DNA of 64,000 nucleotides from Halobellus rarus (lineage in GTDB: Archaea; Halobacteriota; Halobacteria; Halobacteriales; Haloferacaceae), in the NCBI RefSeq assembly GCF_024494595.1, contig NZ_JANHDI010000013.1, positions 1 through 64,000 of the forward strand, given 5' to 3'. Shown one piece after another: positions 32,360 through 40,950 of this stretch (the stretch's first letter is position 1; the number at the start of each line of letters is the position of its first letter). The notes under the pieces were generated by a model. The model searched no databases, was not told the origin of the DNA, and saw only the letters and a list, made by a program, of their open reading frames with translations. Position numbers and translations under genes: made by a program.

Positions 32360-34663
32360 ATGACCGCTAAACACACCTCCGACCCCGGCCCGGCGCGGGA
32401 CTACGTCGAGCGCGCGGACGACCACCTCCGAGGGACCTACGAGGAGCCGATGAGCCTCGACGCCTACGTCGAGGCCGCCTTCGAGCGGCCGTCGATCGCC
32501 GCGCACGCCTCGAAGTACCTGCTGGACGCGATCGAGTCGATGGGCACGCGAACGGTGCTGGAGGAGGGCGAGACCAGGGAGCGGTACCGCTTCTTCGACG
32601 ACCCGGCGAACGACGGCGAACACGCCGTCCTCGGGAACACGGAGGTGCTGAACGGCTTCGTCGACGACCTCCGGACGATCGCCGCCGAGCGGGGGAAATC
32701 CGAGAAGATCCTCTGGTTCGACGGTCCTACCGCGACCGGGAAGTCCGAACTGAAGCGCTGTCTGATCAACGGCTTACGGGCGTACTCGAAGACCGAGGCC
32801 GGTCGCCGGTACACCGTCGAGTGGAACGTCGCGAGCGCGAGCGACACCCGCGGGCTCTCCTACGGCGGCGAGACCAGCGGCGCGGAGCGCGAGACCGACT
32901 GGTACGAGAGCCCGGTGCAGTCGCATCCGCTGTCGGTCTTTCCCGCCGACGTCCGCGGGGAGTTGCTGGCGGCGCTGAACCGCGAATCCGACGAACACGT
33001 TCCGGTCGCGGTCGACGCGGAGCTCGATCCCTTCTGCCGGGAGGCCTACGACCACCTGGAGGAGAAGTACCGCAGAGACGGAACGCGGGAGCTGTTCTCG
33101 GCGGTCACCGATCCCTCGCACCTGCGCGTGAAGAACTACGTCGTCGACGTGGGACGGGGAATCGGCGTCCTCCACTCCGAGGACGACGGCTCGCCCAAGG
33201 AGCGCCTCGTGGGGTCGTGGATGCCGGGGATGCTCCGCGAACTCGACTCCCGCGGTCGGAAGAACCCTCAGGCGTTCAGCTACGACGGCGTGCTCTCGCA
33301 GGGCAACGGCCTCCTCACGATCGTCGAGGACGCCGCCCAGCACGCGGACCTGCTGCAGAAGCTCCTGAACGTGCCCGACGAGGGGCACGTCAAACTCGAC
33401 AAGGGGACGGGGATGGACGTCGACACCCAACTGCTCATCATCTCGAACCCCGACCTCGACGCCGAACTCGACAAGTACTCGGATCGGAACGGCCGCGATC
33501 CGCTGAAGGCGCTGAAGCGCCGGCTCGACAAACACGAGTTCCGGTACCTCACCAACCTCTCCCTCGAGGCGGAGCTGATCCGCCGCGAACTCACCGACGA
33601 GACGGCGGTCTGGGACGTCGACGAGGAGGAGGAGTTGCGAGAACGGGTTCGCGCCCCGCTCCTCGTCGACGTGCAGAGCGGGGTCGGAGCGGTTCGGTCG
33701 AAGGAACTCGCACCGCACGCGGTCGAGGCCGCGGCGATGTACAGCGTGCTCACGCGTCTCGACGGCGAGGACGTCCCCGCCGGCTACGACCTCGTCGACA
33801 AGGCGCTGCTGTTCGATTACGGGTACGTCAGAGAGGACGACGGCCGGACGGGCGTCGAGGAGTTCTCCTTCGACGGCGAGGGCGAGGGCATCCACGGAAT
33901 CCCCGTCACGTTCACCCGCGACGTCATCGCGGACCTGTTGCACGAGGACGCCGACCGGTGGCACCCCGACCTCGACGTCGAGCGCGTCGTCCTCCCCGAG
34001 GACGTCCTCGACGCGATGGCCCGAGGACTACAGAACGCGCCGGTCTTCTCCCGCTCCGAGCGGGCGGAGTACGAGGGCCGGGTGGCGATGGCCAAGGAGT
34101 ACGTCCTCGACAGACAAGAGGAGGACGTCCTCGCGGCGCTGCTCGCGGAGCACTCCGTCGAGCGCGAGACGGTCGCCGAGTACGTCGAGCACGTCTACGC
34201 GTGGGACGGCGACGAGCAGGTCGAGACGAGACACGGACCGATCGATCCGGACCCGCTGCGGATGAAGCTCTTCGAGACCGAACAGCTGGGTCGCTTCGGC
34301 TCGGACGACTACCTCGGCAACCAGCCCACCGAGACGGTCAAACGCTTCCGTCGCGAGCGGATCATCACCGCGCTGAACCGGTACGCGTGGGAGAACCGCG
34401 ACGAGGGGTTCGCCGTCGACGACGTCGACCTCTCGGAGATCCCGGTGATCCGGTCGGTGCTCGACTCGCACGAGTGGGCCGACGTCCGGCGTCTCTACGA
34501 GGACTTCGACCCGACCCAGTGGGAGGATCCGCCGGAGAACACGGAGACGGCGCGACTGAAGGAACAGGCCATCGACGAGCTGATCGGCCGCGGCTACACG
34601 CCGGCCTCGGCGGAGCTGACGAGCCGCGCCGTGATGCGGGAGGTGCGCCACCGATGGGACTGA
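32360..34663 (+). CDS. PrkA-family protein, diverged copy 2
   Basis: This is a 767-residue second PrkA-like protein that starts 2 bp after the first. Its Walker A is GPTATGKS (122-129) and its overall order matches copy 1, but it is about 80 residues longer and clearly not a recent duplicate. The block [32 protein letters not shown] replaces copy 1's CNANRGLF segment. A sensor-like [16 protein letters not shown] block follows. The C-terminal region has an [20 protein letters not shown] helix. I infer it forms a hetero-oligomer with copy 1 or has a different target. It overlaps the next gene by 10 bp. Confidence 0.88.
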
Positions 34664-36012
34664 GAGAGGACCTCGAACGGTTCCGTGAGGTCGGCGAGGA
34701 GCGCCGCGAGGACCTCGAATCGTTCATCCGCTACGGCGACCTCAGCGGCTCCGATACCGACCACATCCAGATCCCGATCAAGGTCGTGGACCTCCCCGAG
34801 TTCGAATACGACAGGCTCGACCGCGGCGGGGTGGGCCAGGGCGACGGCGGCACGCCGGACGTCGGCCAGCCGGTCGGACAGCCGCAACCGGGTGACGGGG
34901 ACGGCGACGAGGAGGGCGACGACGGCGAGCCCGGCGAGGAGGGCGGCGAACACGGCTACTACGAGATGGATCCCGAGGAGTTCGCCGAGGAACTCGACGA
35001 GAAGCTCGGTCTGGACCTCGAACCCAAGGGAAAGGAGGTGATCGAGGAGGTCGAGGGAGACTTCACCGACGTCACGCGAACGGGGCCGAACAGCACGCTC
35101 GACTTCGAGCGGTTGTTCAAACAGGGGCTCAAGCGGAAGCTCGCGACCGACTTCGACGAGGAGTTCGTCCGCGAGGCGATGAAGGTCGCCGGCGAGACTC
35201 CCCAGTCGGTCTTCCAGTGGTGCCGCGAGCGGAACATCCTCGTCTCACTCGCCTGGATCGAGTCCGAGTGGGACGAGATCGAAGCCGAGGAGCGCGAGAA
35301 GTGGGACTCCTTCGCGGAGATGGAGTCGAACGTCGAGCGGACCACGGCGGTCCAGCGGATCCGGCGGAAGGGGCTACGCGAGGTGCCGTTCCGCCGCGAC
35401 GACGAGCGGTACCGTCACCCCGAGATCGAGGAGAAGAAGCAGAAGAACGTCGTCGTCGTCAACATCCGCGACGTCTCGGGGTCGATGCGGGAGACCAAGC
35501 GGGAACTCGTCGAGCGGACGTTCACGCCGCTGGATTGGTACCTCCAGGGGAAGTACGACAACGCGAAGTTCGTCTACATCGCTCACGACGCCGACGCCTG
35601 GGCGGTCGAGCGCGAGGAGTTCTTCGGCATCCGATCGGGCGGCGGCACGCGAATCTCCAGCGCGTACGAACTGGCGAAGGAGATCTTAGAGGAACAGTAC
35701 CCCTGGTCGGAGTGGAACCGCTACGTCTTCGCCGCCGGCGACTCGGAGAACTCCTCGAACGACACGACGGAGAAAGTGATTCCGTTGATGAGAGAGATCC
35801 CCGCGAACCGCCACGCGTACGTGGAGACCCAGCCCGGGGGAACGGCGATCAACGCGACGCACGCCGAGGAGGTCGAAGACGCCTTCTCTGAGGACGGCGA
35901 CGTCGTCGTCGCGCGGGTGAGCGGGCCGGAGGACGTCACCGATGCGATCTACGAGATCCTTCAGCCGGCGTCGTCGAAGGCGTCGACGGCGTCGCCCGCC
36001 GGATCGTCCTGA
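34654..36012 (+). CDS. yeaH: YeaH/YhbH family (DUF444) VWA-like protein
   Basis: This 452-residue DUF444 protein has a charged N-terminus with [26 protein letters not shown], a Gly/Asp/Glu-rich linker (about 60-105) and a C-terminal von Willebrand A-like domain. The MIDAS residues are D273, S275 and S277 (RDVSGSM), with further motifs [14 protein letters not shown] and [13 protein letters not shown]. Bacterial YeaH pairs with the PrkA kinase YeaG. The start at 34654 lies inside the end of the second PrkA gene, implying coupled translation. The VWA/AAA combination suggests a MoxR-like chaperone arrangement (inference). Confidence 0.93.
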
Positions 36013-36038
36013 GAGATGCGAGACCAACACACCAGACA

Positions 36039-38054
36039 ATGACAACCAGACCGCGACGCTTCAGACGGGTGGCGCGACAGGAGGCCGATCGGCTCGAAGA
36101 GCCGGTTCGAGAGGCCGCCGCGCTCGCCCGGAAACTCGGACTCGACCCCTACCCGGTGAACTACTGGGTGGTCGACCACGACGAGATGAACCAGCTCATC
36201 GCCTACGGCGGCTTCCAGGCCCGCTACCCGCACTGGCGGTGGGGAATGACCTACGACCGCCAGCGCAAGCAGGACCAGTTCGGGATGGGCAAGGCGTTCG
36301 AGATCGTCAACAACGACGATCCGAGCCACGCGTTCCTCCAGGAATCGAACACCCTGGCGGACCAGAAGGCCGTCATCACCCACGTCGAGGCGCACGCGGA
36401 CTTCTTCCGCAACAACGAGTGGTTCAGCCGGTTCTCCGGAGACGGCGACCTCGACGCCGCCGCGATGCTCGAACGCCACGCCGAGACCATCCAGCGCTAC
36501 GTGAGCGACCCGGAGATCGACCGCGAGGACGTCGAGCGCTTCGTCGACGCCGTGACCTGCCTCGAGGACACGATCGATCAGCACCGGCCGCTGGCGGCCG
36601 ACCGCGACGGCGAGCGGAGTCAGCCGGAGGACCTCCGCGAGCGCCTCGACGAGATGGACTTCTCCCCGACGGTCAGCGGGGCCGTCTTCGACGACGAGTG
36701 GCTCGACGAACTCGCGGAAGCGGAGGCCGCCGCGGCGGACCTCGACCGGCCGCGAACGGACGTCCTCGGGTTCCTCCTCGAACACGGGACCGTCTACGAC
36801 GAGGAGTCGGGGGAGGCCGTCGAGATGGAGCCCTGGCAGACGGAGGTCCTCGAACTCCTCCGCCGGGAGGCGTACTACTTCGCCCCGCAGAAGATGACGA
36901 AGACGATGAACGAGGGCTGGGCGGCCTACTGGGAGTCGCTGATGATGGGCGAGGAGCGCTTCGCCGGCACCGACGAGTTTCTCACCTACGCCGACCACCA
37001 GGCCCGCGTCCTGGGGTCGCCCGGACTCAATCCCTACAAACTCGGGAAAGAACTCTGGGAGTACGTCGAGAACACGGCCAACAGACGGGAAGTCGCGGAG
37101 AAACTCCTCCGCGTCGAGGGGGTCACCTGGCGGAACTTCCACGACGTCGTCGACTTCGATCGGGTTCAGTCGCTGCTCGAACCGCCGGCGGCGATCGACG
37201 CGATTCGCCCGGATACCCTCGAGAACCTCGCAGCACTCTCCGAGGACGACCCCCGCGTGGACTGGGAGACGCTCGACCGGGCGCTGTCGGACCCCGTGGC
37301 CGTCGACGTCGGCCGCTACCCCTGGAAAGTTCTCACCTACGAGGGGCTGGCCGAGCGCCACTTCTCGCTCGTGAAACCACAGAACCGTGGCTTTCTCCGG
37401 CGTGTCAGACGCTTGGAACTGGAGGAGATATCCAGATATATGTTCGACGACGCGAAGTACGGGAGCGTCGAGGAGGCCGTCGCCGACGTCGGGAAGACGG
37501 TCGGCTGGGACCGGATGCGAGAGGTCCGCGAGAGTCACAACGACGTGACGTTCCTCGACGCGTTCCTCTCTCCGGAGTTCGTCGAGTCGAACGACTACTT
37601 CACCTACGAGTACACCCGCTCGACGGGCGACTTCCGCGTCGCCTCCACGGACCCCGACGACGTGAAGAAGAAGCTGCTCCTGCAGTTCACCAACTTCGGC
37701 AAGCCGACGATCGCCGTCTTCGACGACAACTTCGAGAACCGCGGGGAACTGCTCCTCGGACACCGATACAACGGGATTATGCTCGACCTCGACGAGGCGC
37801 GCGACGTCCTCGAACGCGTGCACGAACTCTGGGGTCGACCGGTCAACCTGATGACGATCCGCAAGGAGTACGACGATCACGACGTCGAGATCGCGCGACG
37901 ACGCAACCGCGAACCGGAGCCGGTCGAAGTCGGGGTTCGGATCCGGTACGACGGCGAGGGATTCGACGAGTTCGAGCTCGATCCCGGGCTGAAAGAGCGG
38001 ATCGCCGCCGACGACATCGACTACGACACCAAGCCCGACGAGTGGCTGTCGTAG
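36039..38054 (+). CDS. SpoVR family protein
   Basis: This 671-residue SpoVR/YcgB protein includes WVVDHDEMNQLIAYGGFQARYPHWRWGMTYD, the metal-suggestive HVEAHADFFRNNEWF block, PQKMTKTMNEGWAAYWES and GLNPYKLGKELW. The C-terminal third ends with LLLGHRYNGIMLDLDEARDVLERVHELWGRPV. SpoVR is needed for spore cortex in Bacillus and is co-conserved with PrkA and YeaH in many bacteria, though its chemistry is unknown. It follows the YeaH gene by 26 bp and completes the operon. Compared with bacterial SpoVR (about 470-510 residues) it is about 150 residues longer. Confidence 0.94.
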   Translation: MTTRPRRFRRVARQEADRLEEPVREAAALARKLGLDPYPVNYWVVDHDEMNQLIAYGGFQARYPHWRWGMTYDRQRKQDQFGMGKAFEIVNNDDPSHAFLQESNTLADQKAVITHVEAHADFFRNNEWFSRFSGDGDLDAAAMLERHAETIQRYVSDPEIDREDVERFVDAVTCLEDTIDQHRPLAADRDGERSQPEDLRERLDEMDFSPTVSGAVFDDEWLDELAEAEAAAADLDRPRTDVLGFLLEHGTVYDEESGEAVEMEPWQTEVLELLRREAYYFAPQKMTKTMNEGWAAYWESLMMGEERFAGTDEFLTYADHQARVLGSPGLNPYKLGKELWEYVENTANRREVAEKLLRVEGVTWRNFHDVVDFDRVQSLLEPPAAIDAIRPDTLENLAALSEDDPRVDWETLDRALSDPVAVDVGRYPWKVLTYEGLAERHFSLVKPQNRGFLRRVRRLELEEISRYMFDDAKYGSVEEAVADVGKTVGWDRMREVRESHNDVTFLDAFLSPEFVESNDYFTYEYTRSTGDFRVASTDPDDVKKKLLLQFTNFGKPTIAVFDDNFENRGELLLGHRYNGIMLDLDEARDVLERVHELWGRPVNLMTIRKEYDDHDVEIARRRNREPEPVEVGVRIRYDGEGFDEFELDPGLKERIAADDIDYDTKPDEWLS

Positions 38055-38069
38055 TCGATAGCTCTCCGC

Positions 38070-38111
38070 CGCCGGTCAGACGGCAGAAGCCGTTCGTCGC
38101 CGGTCAGACGG
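38070..38111. repeat. 14-bp direct repeat, 28-bp period
   Basis: CGCCGGTCAGACGG occurs at 38070-38083 and 38098-38111. The second copy contains the stop codon and last residues of the SAMP-like gene; the first lies in the gap to the SpoVR stop. It fits the pattern of short duplications at gene ends seen elsewhere in the window. Confidence 0.75.
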
Positions 38112-38385
38112 TGGCTCGGGACCCGCCGGTCACCGGCGGAAACATCGCGAGCTCGTCGCCGTCCTCGATCGAATCCGCCGGCGAGGCCGGCGTGCCGTTC
38201 CGCATCAGATTCACGTCGTCGGCGAGGGAGTCGCCGTCGAGAATCCGATCGTCGAGCCCGTCACACTCCGCTACGAGCGCGGCGATCGCGTCGTCGATCG
38301 TGCCGTCGCCGTCGACGGAGACCGCGTGTTCTCGTCCGCCCGCGACCTCGGCGAGATCGGCGAACAGCCGCCAGGTGATCTGCAT
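38104..38385 (-). CDS. SAMP1/MoaD-like ubiquitin-fold protein with residues after Gly-Gly
   Basis: This 93-residue ubiquitin-fold protein closely resembles haloarchaeal SAMP1/MoaD: ITWRLFADLAEVAGGRE at the start, a DDVNLMRNG strand and GDELAMFPPVTGG at the end. The Gly-Gly is at residues 87-88 but five residues (SRATV) follow. Conjugation or sulfur transfer needs a free C-terminal Gly, so cleavage by a JAMM-type protease would be required first, as for eukaryotic ubiquitin precursors. The reading frame to the TGA at 38104 is clear. It converges on SpoVR. Confidence 0.86.
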   Translation of the reverse strand: MQITWRLFADLAEVAGGREHAVSVDGDGTIDDAIAALVAECDGLDDRILDGDSLADDVNLMRNGTPASPADSIEDGDELAMFPPVTGGSRATV

Positions 38386-38416: not shown

Positions 38417-39700
38417 TTACGCCGTCGGATCGTCGCCGTCGGGACGCGCTCCGCCGCCGTCCGCGGCCGGGGCCGCCGCGAGTACGGCGACCTCGCGGAG
38501 CCGTTCGGGACGGGCGACCACGTAGAGTTCGTCGCCGGCGGTGAGTACCCTGCTCCGCGCCGGAATCGCCTCGATCGGGCTTCCCGGCGGCCGTACGGCG
38601 ACCACCGTCGCGGCGACGTCGCTCAGCGTCGCGCCGTCGAGAGCGCTGTCGGCCTCGACGGCGACGACGACCATCGTCTCGTCGGCCGCACGCAGTAGAG
38701 CGGTGAACTCGCGCTCAGCGCCGGGATCAGTCGGCAGCGTAAGCAGCCGGTAGGACTCGTCGGGCGCGAGCGCCGCCGCATCGGTCTCGTCGAGGATCAC
38801 CGTGGCGACGTCGTCGGTCGAAGCCCGCAGTTCGCCGCTCGCCACGCGTCTGGCGGGCTTTCTGCCGCTGTCTCCGTCTTCGTTCGCGCCGCCCCCGTTG
38901 CTCGCGTCGACCCGCCGCCACAACTGTACTGCGTCGCCGGCGGACGCTCCCGCTCCCGGATCCGCCCGGACCGCGACGGCGGCGAACCCGGGCGCGAGCG
39001 TCGTTCCGAGGCCCGCGACCCGCCGACCGAGTCCGAGTTTCGTCACCGTGCCGTCGTCGTCGAGTTCGAGGTCGACGTAGCCGACGCCGTAGTCCTCCTT
39101 GATACGCGCGACGACGCGGTCGCGGAGCGCCTCGCCGCGGAGGTTCCGGGGCACGAGGAGCGTCTTCCCCGCCAGTTCCTCCTTCGTCGCCCCCGGCACG
39201 GGCTCGTACCCCTCGATGTCCGCCACGTCGTCGGCCTCCTCCGGAAGTTCGATCGCGCGGATCCGACCGACGTTGCTGACCAGTCGACTCACCTCGGTGT
39301 CGAGTTCGCGCGTGCCGACGAGCGCGAACACGCTGGTCGCGAGTCGGTCCCCGACCGCTCGTCCGGCGGGCGAGACGGCGATGGCGGCGGCGAGCGTCGC
39401 CGCGTTGACGAGGACGACCGTCGGATCGAACACGTCGGCGGGGTCCGAGCCGACGGCCCGCTGGAAGAGCCCGACGGCGTTGAGGTACACCGCGACGCCG
39501 GACGCGCCGAAGAGCGTCGCCAGCCAGGCCGGGATCTCATCGCGCGTGTACCACCGATAGAGAATCGCCCCGAGCGCCGCGAGGATCGCCGCGAGAACGG
39601 CCAGACCGACCACCCGGGTCAGCGCACCCATCAGCGTCGGATCGTCCGGGATCCCCGCTCCGATCTGGAACGAGACGCCGGCCGCCAGGGGGAGGCTCAC
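38417..39700 (-). CDS. Membrane protein with TrkA-C-like cytoplasmic domains, second of pair
   Basis: This 427-residue protein starts at a GTG overlapping the previous stop (GTGA). It has two or three N-terminal membrane segments (about 20-95). The cytoplasmic part has an RCK-like stretch (residues about 110-230, with GKTLLVPRNLRGEALRDRVVARIKEDYGVGYVDLEL) and a C-terminal TrkA-C-like block (IEAIPARSRVLTAGDELYVVARPERLRE). The first gene of the pair has the same plan, so they probably form one membrane complex sensing or gating potassium. An acidic Gly-rich insert (about 275-290) separates domains. The family assignment is by pattern only. Confidence 0.75.
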   Translation of the reverse strand: MSLPLAAGVSFQIGAGIPDDPTLMGALTRVVGLAVLAAILAALGAILYRWYTRDEIPAWLATLFGASGVAVYLNAVGLFQRAVGSDPADVFDPTVVLVNAATLAAAIAVSPAGRAVGDRLATSVFALVGTRELDTEVSRLVSNVGRIRAIELPEEADDVADIEGYEPVPGATKEELAGKTLLVPRNLRGEALRDRVVARIKEDYGVGYVDLELDDDGTVTKLGLGRRVAGLGTTLAPGFAAVAVRADPGAGASAGDAVQLWRRVDASNGGGANEDGDSGRKPARRVASGELRASTDDVATVILDETDAAALAPDESYRLLTLPTDPGAEREFTALLRAADETMVVVAVEADSALDGATLSDVAATVVAVRPPGSPIEAIPARSRVLTAGDELYVVARPERLREVAVLAAAPAADGGGARPDGDDPTA

Positions 39701-40950
39701 GCCGTCACCTCCCCGAACGCGTCCAGGTCCGCCTTGCTCCCGACGACGAGGAGGTCGTCGCCGGACGCGATGGCGTGCGACCCGCGAGGCGCGATCGACC
39801 ACGATCCGTCGTGCCTGATCGCGAGGACGATCACGCCGTGGACCTCCCGGACGCCCGCCTCCCCGATCGTGGTCGCAACCAACTCGCTCCCCACGCCGAC
39901 CGTGAACCGACGGAACCGCTTGCCGGTGCGTCGGAGCAGTCCGACCAGCTCGAACTCCCGCCGGCTCCCCCGAGACTCGACGACCAGGCGGACGTCGTCG
40001 GCCGCGAGCAGGTCCGTCGCCGGTTGTCGCCCGGCCGCGAGCGTGACCCGCGCCGGGCCGCCGGTCGCCGTCGGAACCGTCGACTCTCCCGCTGCGGTCG
40101 GTGGGTCGGCCGTCTCGTCGCCGCCGTCGGTCTCGGCGGCCGGTGAACTTCCCGCCGGGGCGACGCCCCCGGCGTCCGAGCCCGCCTCTTCGAGGACTCC
40201 CAGGAACCGCGCGTCGAACCGCTCGCCGTCGGCGAGGACCGTCACCTCGTCGCCCCGTGCGGTTCCCGTCGGAACCAACGCGTCCACGGACACCGCCCGC
40301 TCGCCCGGTTTGAGGTGTTTCGAGAGCCCGCTCGTCGGCGGTGCCGCGGAAACCGTCGCGCGGGCGCGCTCGTCGAGCGTCACCGACACCTCCACGAGGT
40401 CGTACTCGGTCCGGAGCGCGGCCGCGACGCGGGATTCCAGTTCCACGAGCGGGAGGTCCGCCGGGAACGTCCACGTCTCCGCGCGGATCGCCTCTCGCAG
40501 CGCCGCCGGGAGCGGCGGGTAGCCCTCGAGGTCGCCCACGTCGCCGACGACGGTGATCCGGGCCTGGCCGCGACCGCCGACCAGTTCGACGACGTCCGCC
40601 GAGAGCGTCCGCTTCGTGAGTTCGCGGAGCGTCATCCGGCGCGGGAGCGACGCGCCCATCTTGTCGCCCTGGCCGTGCGCGTACAGCGTTCCCATCAGGA
40701 CGACGAGCAGGGCGACCGTGAGACGGAGCTGATTCGCCGATCCCGTCAGCGACGGGTCCGCGAGCGCGAGGAGCCCGCCGTTGAGTCCGGCGATCATCAC
40801 GCCGAGGCCGACGACGCCGAGCCCGGGAATCGTGATTCCGGTGAAGTACTTGAATCCGAAGCCGAGCAGCCAGGCGATGAGCGCCGGCACGAGCCCGGTC
40901 AGTACGCCGAGGTAGAGGCCGTAGAGGATTTCGACGGGGAGAGATGCCAT
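39697..40950 (-). CDS. Membrane protein with TrkA-C-like cytoplasmic domains, first of pair
   Basis: This 417-residue protein has three membrane helices in the first 90 residues (LYGLYLGVLTGLVPALIAWLLGF, GLGVVGLGVMIAGLNGGLLAL, LRLTVALLVVLMGTLYAHG). A cytoplasmic region of about 320 residues ends in a TrkA-C-like domain (GVREVHGVIVLAIRHDGSWSIAPRG, IASGDDLLVVGSKADLDAF). A Ser/Gly/Ala-rich linker lies near 240-290. It is translationally coupled to the second gene by 4 bp overlap. Together they look like a two-subunit regulator of K+ transport, but no pore subunit is next to them. Confidence 0.77.
   Translation of the reverse strand: MASLPVEILYGLYLGVLTGLVPALIAWLLGFGFKYFTGITIPGLGVVGLGVMIAGLNGGLLALADPSLTGSANQLRLTVALLVVLMGTLYAHGQGDKMGASLPRRMTLRELTKRTLSADVVELVGGRGQARITVVGDVGDLEGYPPLPAALREAIRAETWTFPADLPLVELESRVAAALRTEYDLVEVSVTLDERARATVSAAPPTSGLSKHLKPGERAVSVDALVPTGTARGDEVTVLADGERFDARFLGVLEEAGSDAGGVAPAGSSPAAETDGGDETADPPTAAGESTVPTATGGPARVTLAAGRQPATDLLAADDVRLVVESRGSRREFELVGLLRRTGKRFRRFTVGVGSELVATTIGEAGVREVHGVIVLAIRHDGSWSIAPRGSHAIASGDDLLVVGSKADLDAFGEVTA

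Follow-up and report, generated by a model that had tools for sequence, protein, structure and literature searches.

Residues past the diglycine of SAMP1 in Halobellus rarus and their association with an HvJAMM1-type desampylase in haloarchaea

In contrast to ubiquitin, SAMPs of archaea are usually described as being made in their final form. The stretch of Halobellus rarus DNA analysed here (the window; contig NZ_JANHDI010000013.1, positions 1 to 64,000, 64,000 nucleotides) carries a gene for a SAMP1/MoaD-like ubiquitin-like protein that is encoded with five residues after its Gly-Gly, and the question is how a modifier with a covered C-terminal glycine comes into use. Tailed SAMP1 genes were common in the family (Haloferacaceae), and among the genomes scored in the order (Halobacteriales) they were confined to those encoding an HvJAMM1-type desampylase. 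The tail is probably a precursor extension, which this desampylase would trim after the Gly-Gly before activation by the E1 enzyme.

The tailed end of SAMP1

The open reading frame (Table 1) encodes 93 residues from an ATG to a TGA stop codon. The protein ends in DELAMFPPVTGGSRATV, its terminus being DELAMFPPVTGG followed by SRATV, that is, FPPVTGG-SRATV-stop. The initial annotation had given the position of the frame and the residues past the diglycine correctly, leaving the strand (minus) unstated. The protein scored 92.9 bits with the NCBIfam SAMP1 model NF041918 (cut-off 60) and 46.4 bits with Pfam ThiS (PF02597, cut-off 22.5), and SAMP1 structures were its top solved relatives (E 8.8e-22, residues 3-88 matched). 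NF041918 alone cannot tell SAMP1 from a SAMP3-like paralogue, because the paralogue also passes the cut-off. The predicted structure, with a mean predicted local distance difference test score (pLDDT) of 85, showed strands and helices in the order typical of a beta-grasp domain, a fold that the ThiS and solved-chain matches also imply. Residues 87-93 scored below 50, so that the tail is predicted to be disordered. With SRATV trailing, the encoded protein has no Gly-Gly at its extreme C-terminus and would have one only once trimmed.

The family search gave a SAMP1 match in 168 of 170 genomes, and the C-termini were read for 149 of the 168. The Gly-Gly was invariant in these 149 genes, so orthologues lacking it at this place were not the case, and 68 of them, spread over 11 of 26 genera, carried a tail of 1-12 residues. 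A terminal Gly-Gly is therefore not a defining feature of the family, since 68 of the 149 fetched orthologues depart from it likewise. The premise that archaeal SAMPs normally end straight in Gly-Gly was unsupported for the same reason, and precursors from Caldiarchaeum have been published (PMC6043591). Within Halobellus 9 of 15 genes were tailed (SRATV, SLPIV, SRP, SAR, SLSSVDP, SERCDPVA, SGIGRGDA and, twice, a single R). The nearest named relatives were Halobellus species, and the tails of named isolates were SRP in Halobellus rufus, SLSSVDP in H. clavatus, R in H. salinus, SAR in H. inordinatus and SERCDPVA in Halobellus sp. Atlit-31R; H. captivus was tail-less. The closest relative, from genome G088, was 90% identical and had SLPIV at the equivalent place. 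The recurrence of tails in many separate assemblies, named isolates among them, rules out a sequencing error or frameshift as the origin of the tail. Of 50 genes fetched from g21, the largest genus, 34 were tailed, mostly with [SA]VGR-like ends, and in the Haloferax-like genus g9 none of 15 was. The presence of a tail was thus common among orthologues, while its sequence was not conserved.

A tree built from the 149 SAMP1 bodies requires no fewer than 21 changes of tail state. The genus medians of tail length were 1-12 residues, compared with a median of about 44 for the extension that loss of the stop codon would give in tail-less genes (11 versus 24 genera, p 4e-5); the tails fall far short of the length expected from chance read-through. 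Rare long tails of 37, 47 and more than 90 residues were found elsewhere in the order. The body and the Gly-Gly were strictly retained in tailed proteins. This, together with an identity of at least 68% to the window SAMP1 in 12 of the 15 Halobellus matches, tailed or not, argues against a dead or decaying copy whose work is done by another SAMP. A second SAMP1-family protein, SAMP3-like, is indeed present in the genome, but it is also tailed (ALGGES), and decay is scarcely credible.

Tails and the desampylase

The genome that contains the window encodes one desampylase (L162), which scored 161.5 bits with model NF041370 (cut-off 130). Its EEVCG and HSHP...PRPS..D motifs aligned to those of PfJAMM1 (5LDA/5LD9), so that the metal-binding E, H-x-H, S and D are in place. 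The genome thus combines a SAMP1 with residues past the Gly-Gly and a JAMM protease with an intact motif. It also encodes a JAMM2-like protein (L163) and a single ThiF-family E1 (282.5 bits). Both in vitro and in vivo, HvJAMM1 cleaves a linear SAMP1-MoaE fusion exactly behind Gly, and the activity of that fusion requires HvJAMM1 (PMC4443979). The enzyme is described as hydrolysing linear linkages of SAMP1-3 (PMC4048286) and works alone, purified HvJAMM2 being inactive (PMC4895103). With desampylase and E1 encoded in one genome, and with the published cutting of linear SAMP1 fusions by HvJAMM1 behind the Gly-Gly, a precursor cut by JAMM1 is the most likely reading of the tail. SAMP1 would be made with five extra residues covering its C-terminal glycine, and the zinc-dependent JAMM/MPN+ desampylase, encoded elsewhere in the genome, would cut past the Gly-Gly. 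The exposed glycine would then be adenylated by the single UbaA-like E1, and the trimmed protein is predicted to serve both as MoaD sulfur carrier and as protein modifier.

If the tail has to be removed, tails are expected only where a protease that cuts them exists. A Prok-JAB protein of some kind was present in 169 of 170 family genomes and was useless as a correlate; only NF041370, the equivalog model of the HvJAMM1 type with a curated cut-off of 130, separated the genomes. In the order, 392 genomes were sampled, and 273 of them exceeded its cut-off. SAMP1 ends in the 392 genomes were read with the DNA pattern D..A.FPPV[ST]GG, with or without a following stop, and sequences were fetched where the pattern failed, giving 377 scored genomes in total. 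The desampylase was counted as present at E <1e-20, which admitted five hits that fall short of the curated cut-off; no tailed genome was among these five. For 11 tail-less genomes lacking the desampylase the stop-pattern count alone was seen, and this pattern would also accept TGG. Among genomes with desampylase 69 of 270 had a tailed SAMP1 gene, and among those lacking it 0 of 107 had one (Fisher p 6.5e-12). Counted by genus, tails occurred in 25 of 66 with desampylase and in 0 of 28 without (p 2.9e-5), and the association held when stratified by family (exact p 7e-4). In the mixed genera g68 and g92 tails were confined to desampylase genomes, and g54 and g63 were tail-less throughout. In g23 three genomes (G158-G160) had only a weak Prok-JAB hit and no tail, and G161 had a strong hit and a TRV end. 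These distributions and the cutting of SAMP1 fusions by HvJAMM1 (PMC4443979) support the earlier proposal of a precursor trimmed by a JAMM protease, while for the window protein itself cleavage is what we infer.

Descent might produce the same association by accident: the genomes are related, and pairs were too scarce for a tree-based test. The genus-level and family-stratified tests nevertheless hold, the tail state changed repeatedly on the 149-row tree, and SAMP3 shows the same pattern (see below); an accident of ancestry is accordingly quite unlikely.

Removal by another protease or a carboxypeptidase, such as JAMM2, the proteasome or general peptidases, would find its agents in the nearly universal Prok-JAB proteins, and JAMM2 has been proposed to recycle SAMP2 (PMC4895103). 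Family genomes at least 90% complete with only a weak, JAMM2-like hit were, however, tail-less among those fetched, as were all 107 desampylase-lacking genomes of the order, and carboxypeptidases would not be expected to halt at Gly-Gly. Trimming by such enzymes appears very unlikely.

The residue directly after the Gly-Gly (P1') was small (S, A, C, T or G) in 32 of 46 genus-residue events, compared with 41% expected (p 1e-4), and Pro was found in 0 of 46 (p 0.03). For CsRpn11 a bulky Glu at P1' stops cutting and Gly speeds it, pointing to steric limits (PMC6043591). The preference for small residues agrees with these limits, although Glu was nevertheless present at P1' in two genera.

Several observations weigh against trimming by JAMM1 as the explanation. 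Most desampylase genomes (201 of 270) are tail-less; the protease therefore looks necessary and not sufficient for a tail, and is not there solely for tail removal. Kinship of the species weakens the genome-level p value, and within the family the tree gave only 2 supported pairs for a pair test, with which significance is unreachable. One genome outside the order sample (G078, 79% complete) had a tail although its Prok-JAB hit was no more than weak, and 15 of the 392 order genomes were unscored. The background that control codons provide for P1' is rough, and Ser lies one step from stop codons. Cleavage of fusions in vitro is reportedly independent of Gly-Gly (cited in PMC8832034). Finally, in genome G184 SAMP3 is fused in the way described below for four other genomes, yet no desampylase was hit; this genome is 59% complete and its SAMP1 was unscored.

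Whole haloarchaeal genera (e.g. g46, g32, g70, g57, g62 and g89) were without HvJAMM1-type desampylase and retained SAMP1. Desampylation in these genera is therefore performed by another enzyme or absent.

Since tail sequence and length drift within genera, the tail itself is probably disposable and without function. Once the protease is present, tails could be freely gained, lost and altered as long as they are short and their P1' residue is accepted. A slowly removed tail could instead be a regulated block, an inactive pro-form of SAMP1 being stored and released when JAMM1, through its zinc or redox state, permits. An inactivating effect of the tail had been considered in the initial annotation as well. 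The persistence of mostly [SA]VGR-like tails across the large clade g21 would suit such a pro-form. Against it stand the drift within genera, the many desampylase genomes that do without a tail, and the third codon positions of 29 four-residue g21 tails, which were not clearly freer than the others. A regulated pro-form is for these reasons unlikely, and a role of the tail as a conserved functional peptide was likewise unsupported by these 29 tails. Directly after the SAMP1 stop, ATCGGTCGTTTCAAA was strongly conserved in most g21 loci (e.g. L087), short insertions displacing it in a few species. It looks like a regulatory element, and because it follows the stop, part of the tail conservation in g21 may lie at the DNA level.

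SAMP3, second copies and the surrounding DNA

The second SAMP1-family protein of the genome (L001, SAMP3-like, on contig C11) ends in FPPVAGG-ALGGES. Its counterpart in the genus Haloferax is near-identical to chain 2M19, which we take to be SAMP3. For SAMP3, 80 genomes were chosen by hand, 52 without and 28 with desampylase. The FPPVAGG pattern occurred in 39 of these. In one desampylase-lacking genome (G346) the match turned out to lie in a fortuitous frame and to be no SAMP, so that 38 were kept. In this chosen set SAMP3 was tailed or fused in 17 of 26 genomes with desampylase and in 0 of 12 without (p 2e-4). In four genomes, all with desampylase (G324, G104, G066 and G161), the SAMP3 frame continues into the next protein and ends in ...KAMRAGG. 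Read from sequence, SAMP3 and the small protein in one frame are a natural ubiquitin-like fusion with one Gly-Gly internal and one terminal. In the window genome there is an overlap between L001 and a small gene for a protein with the end MRAGG, and L280, L281, L283 and L284 are related loci of the fused frame. Makarova and Koonin described a GG-ending TBP-like family, arCOG06308, whose genes neighbour those of MoaD (PMC2948915), and the protein fused to SAMP3 may be a candidate member of it.

We lean somewhat towards a wider view, in which haloarchaeal JAMM1 also matures SAMP1 and SAMP3 and thereby permits stop loss, tails and whole-protein fusions; a lineage would then be dependent on this enzyme, whereas the bare Gly-Gly would be kept in lineages from which the enzyme has been lost. 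If trimming takes place in a quarter of the desampylase-bearing haloarchaea, a ubiquitin-like maturation step is widespread in archaea, and JAMM1 gains a second job besides removing SAMPs from their targets. It would be a case of a dependency arising as an enzyme renders a defect harmless.

Second SAMP1-like copies, diverged over much of their body, were found on other contigs in two genomes, L225 in G206 with the tail SFSLRI and L227 in G228 with LFSLRI; they possibly sit on a mobile element.

Table 1. Features of the window at and around the SAMP1 gene
Feature	Position	Strand	Basis or remark
SAMP1/MoaD-like ubiquitin-like protein gene	38104..38385	minus (38385 to 38104)	open reading frame; NF041918; PF02597; structure model
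FPPVTGG codons, E1-recognised end	38122..38142	minus	sequence; GG kept in 149/149 fetched family orthologues
SRATV codons, five-residue tail past GG	38107..38121	minus	sequence; model disorder; nearest relative SLPIV
SpoVR family gene, convergent neighbour	36039..38054	plus	PF04293, 264 bits
Upstream open frame, C-terminal TrkA-C-like domain	38417..40474	minus	PF02080, 23.2 bits, below cut-off 27
24-nt direct repeat	copy 1 38060-38083, copy 2 38088-38111		between convergent SAMP1 and SpoVR genes

The 3' ends of SAMP1 and the SpoVR gene are 49 bp apart, and the latter lies outside the SAMP1 system as far as tested. It belongs to a plus-strand gene cluster at about 32400-38054 that presumably includes a PrkA kinase and a YhbH-like protein beside SpoVR. 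The copies of the direct repeat have a 28-nt spacing, and the second spans the SAMP1 stop codon together with the last part of the tail; local duplication may have supplied this stop. A hairpin at the tail was unsupported (fold z -0.83). Upstream of SAMP1 on the same strand are two genes with TrkA-C-type domains, of which one scored under the cut-off; the true start of the nearer frame is probably near 39700.

Comparison with known systems

In a search of the open literature, with Hepowit 2012 and Miranda 2014 outside its scope, no report was found of tails on haloarchaeal SAMPs or of a link with jamm1. JAMM-trimmed, tailed SAMP precursors were previously known from one other archaeon, Caldiarchaeum, in which their cutting by JAMM has been published (PMC6043591). 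That system shares an archaeal SAMP made with residues past the Gly-Gly and matured by a JAMM protease. It concerns one species of another phylum and is biochemical, whereas the haloarchaeal tails extend over many species and are known from comparison alone.

The modifier of Haloferax volcanii, SAMP1 (HVO_2619), with HvJAMM1 and UbaA, is orthologous to that of the window (a Haloferax-like protein, L022, is 51% identical). Both have the FPPV-S/T-GG end, and the same desampylase and E1 families are found in the genome. The Haloferax-type SAMP1 ends at Gly-Gly (all 15 fetched from g9), whereas that of the window bears SRATV. In the engineered SAMP1-MoaE (PMC4443979) and the Deinococcus MoaD-MoaE (PMC8832034), as proposed here, an extension past the Gly-Gly blocks MoaD function until JAMM cuts; those extensions are whole proteins, compared with the short peptides of the haloarchaea.

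SAMP3 fused to a small GG-ending protein would be an archaeal parallel of the ubiquitin fusion genes. Bacterial sulfur carriers of the QbsE/QbsD type and the eukaryotic ubiquitin and SUMO precursors also lose C-terminal residues to expose a Gly-Gly. These are different proteins, however, and the eukaryotic ones use other protease families.
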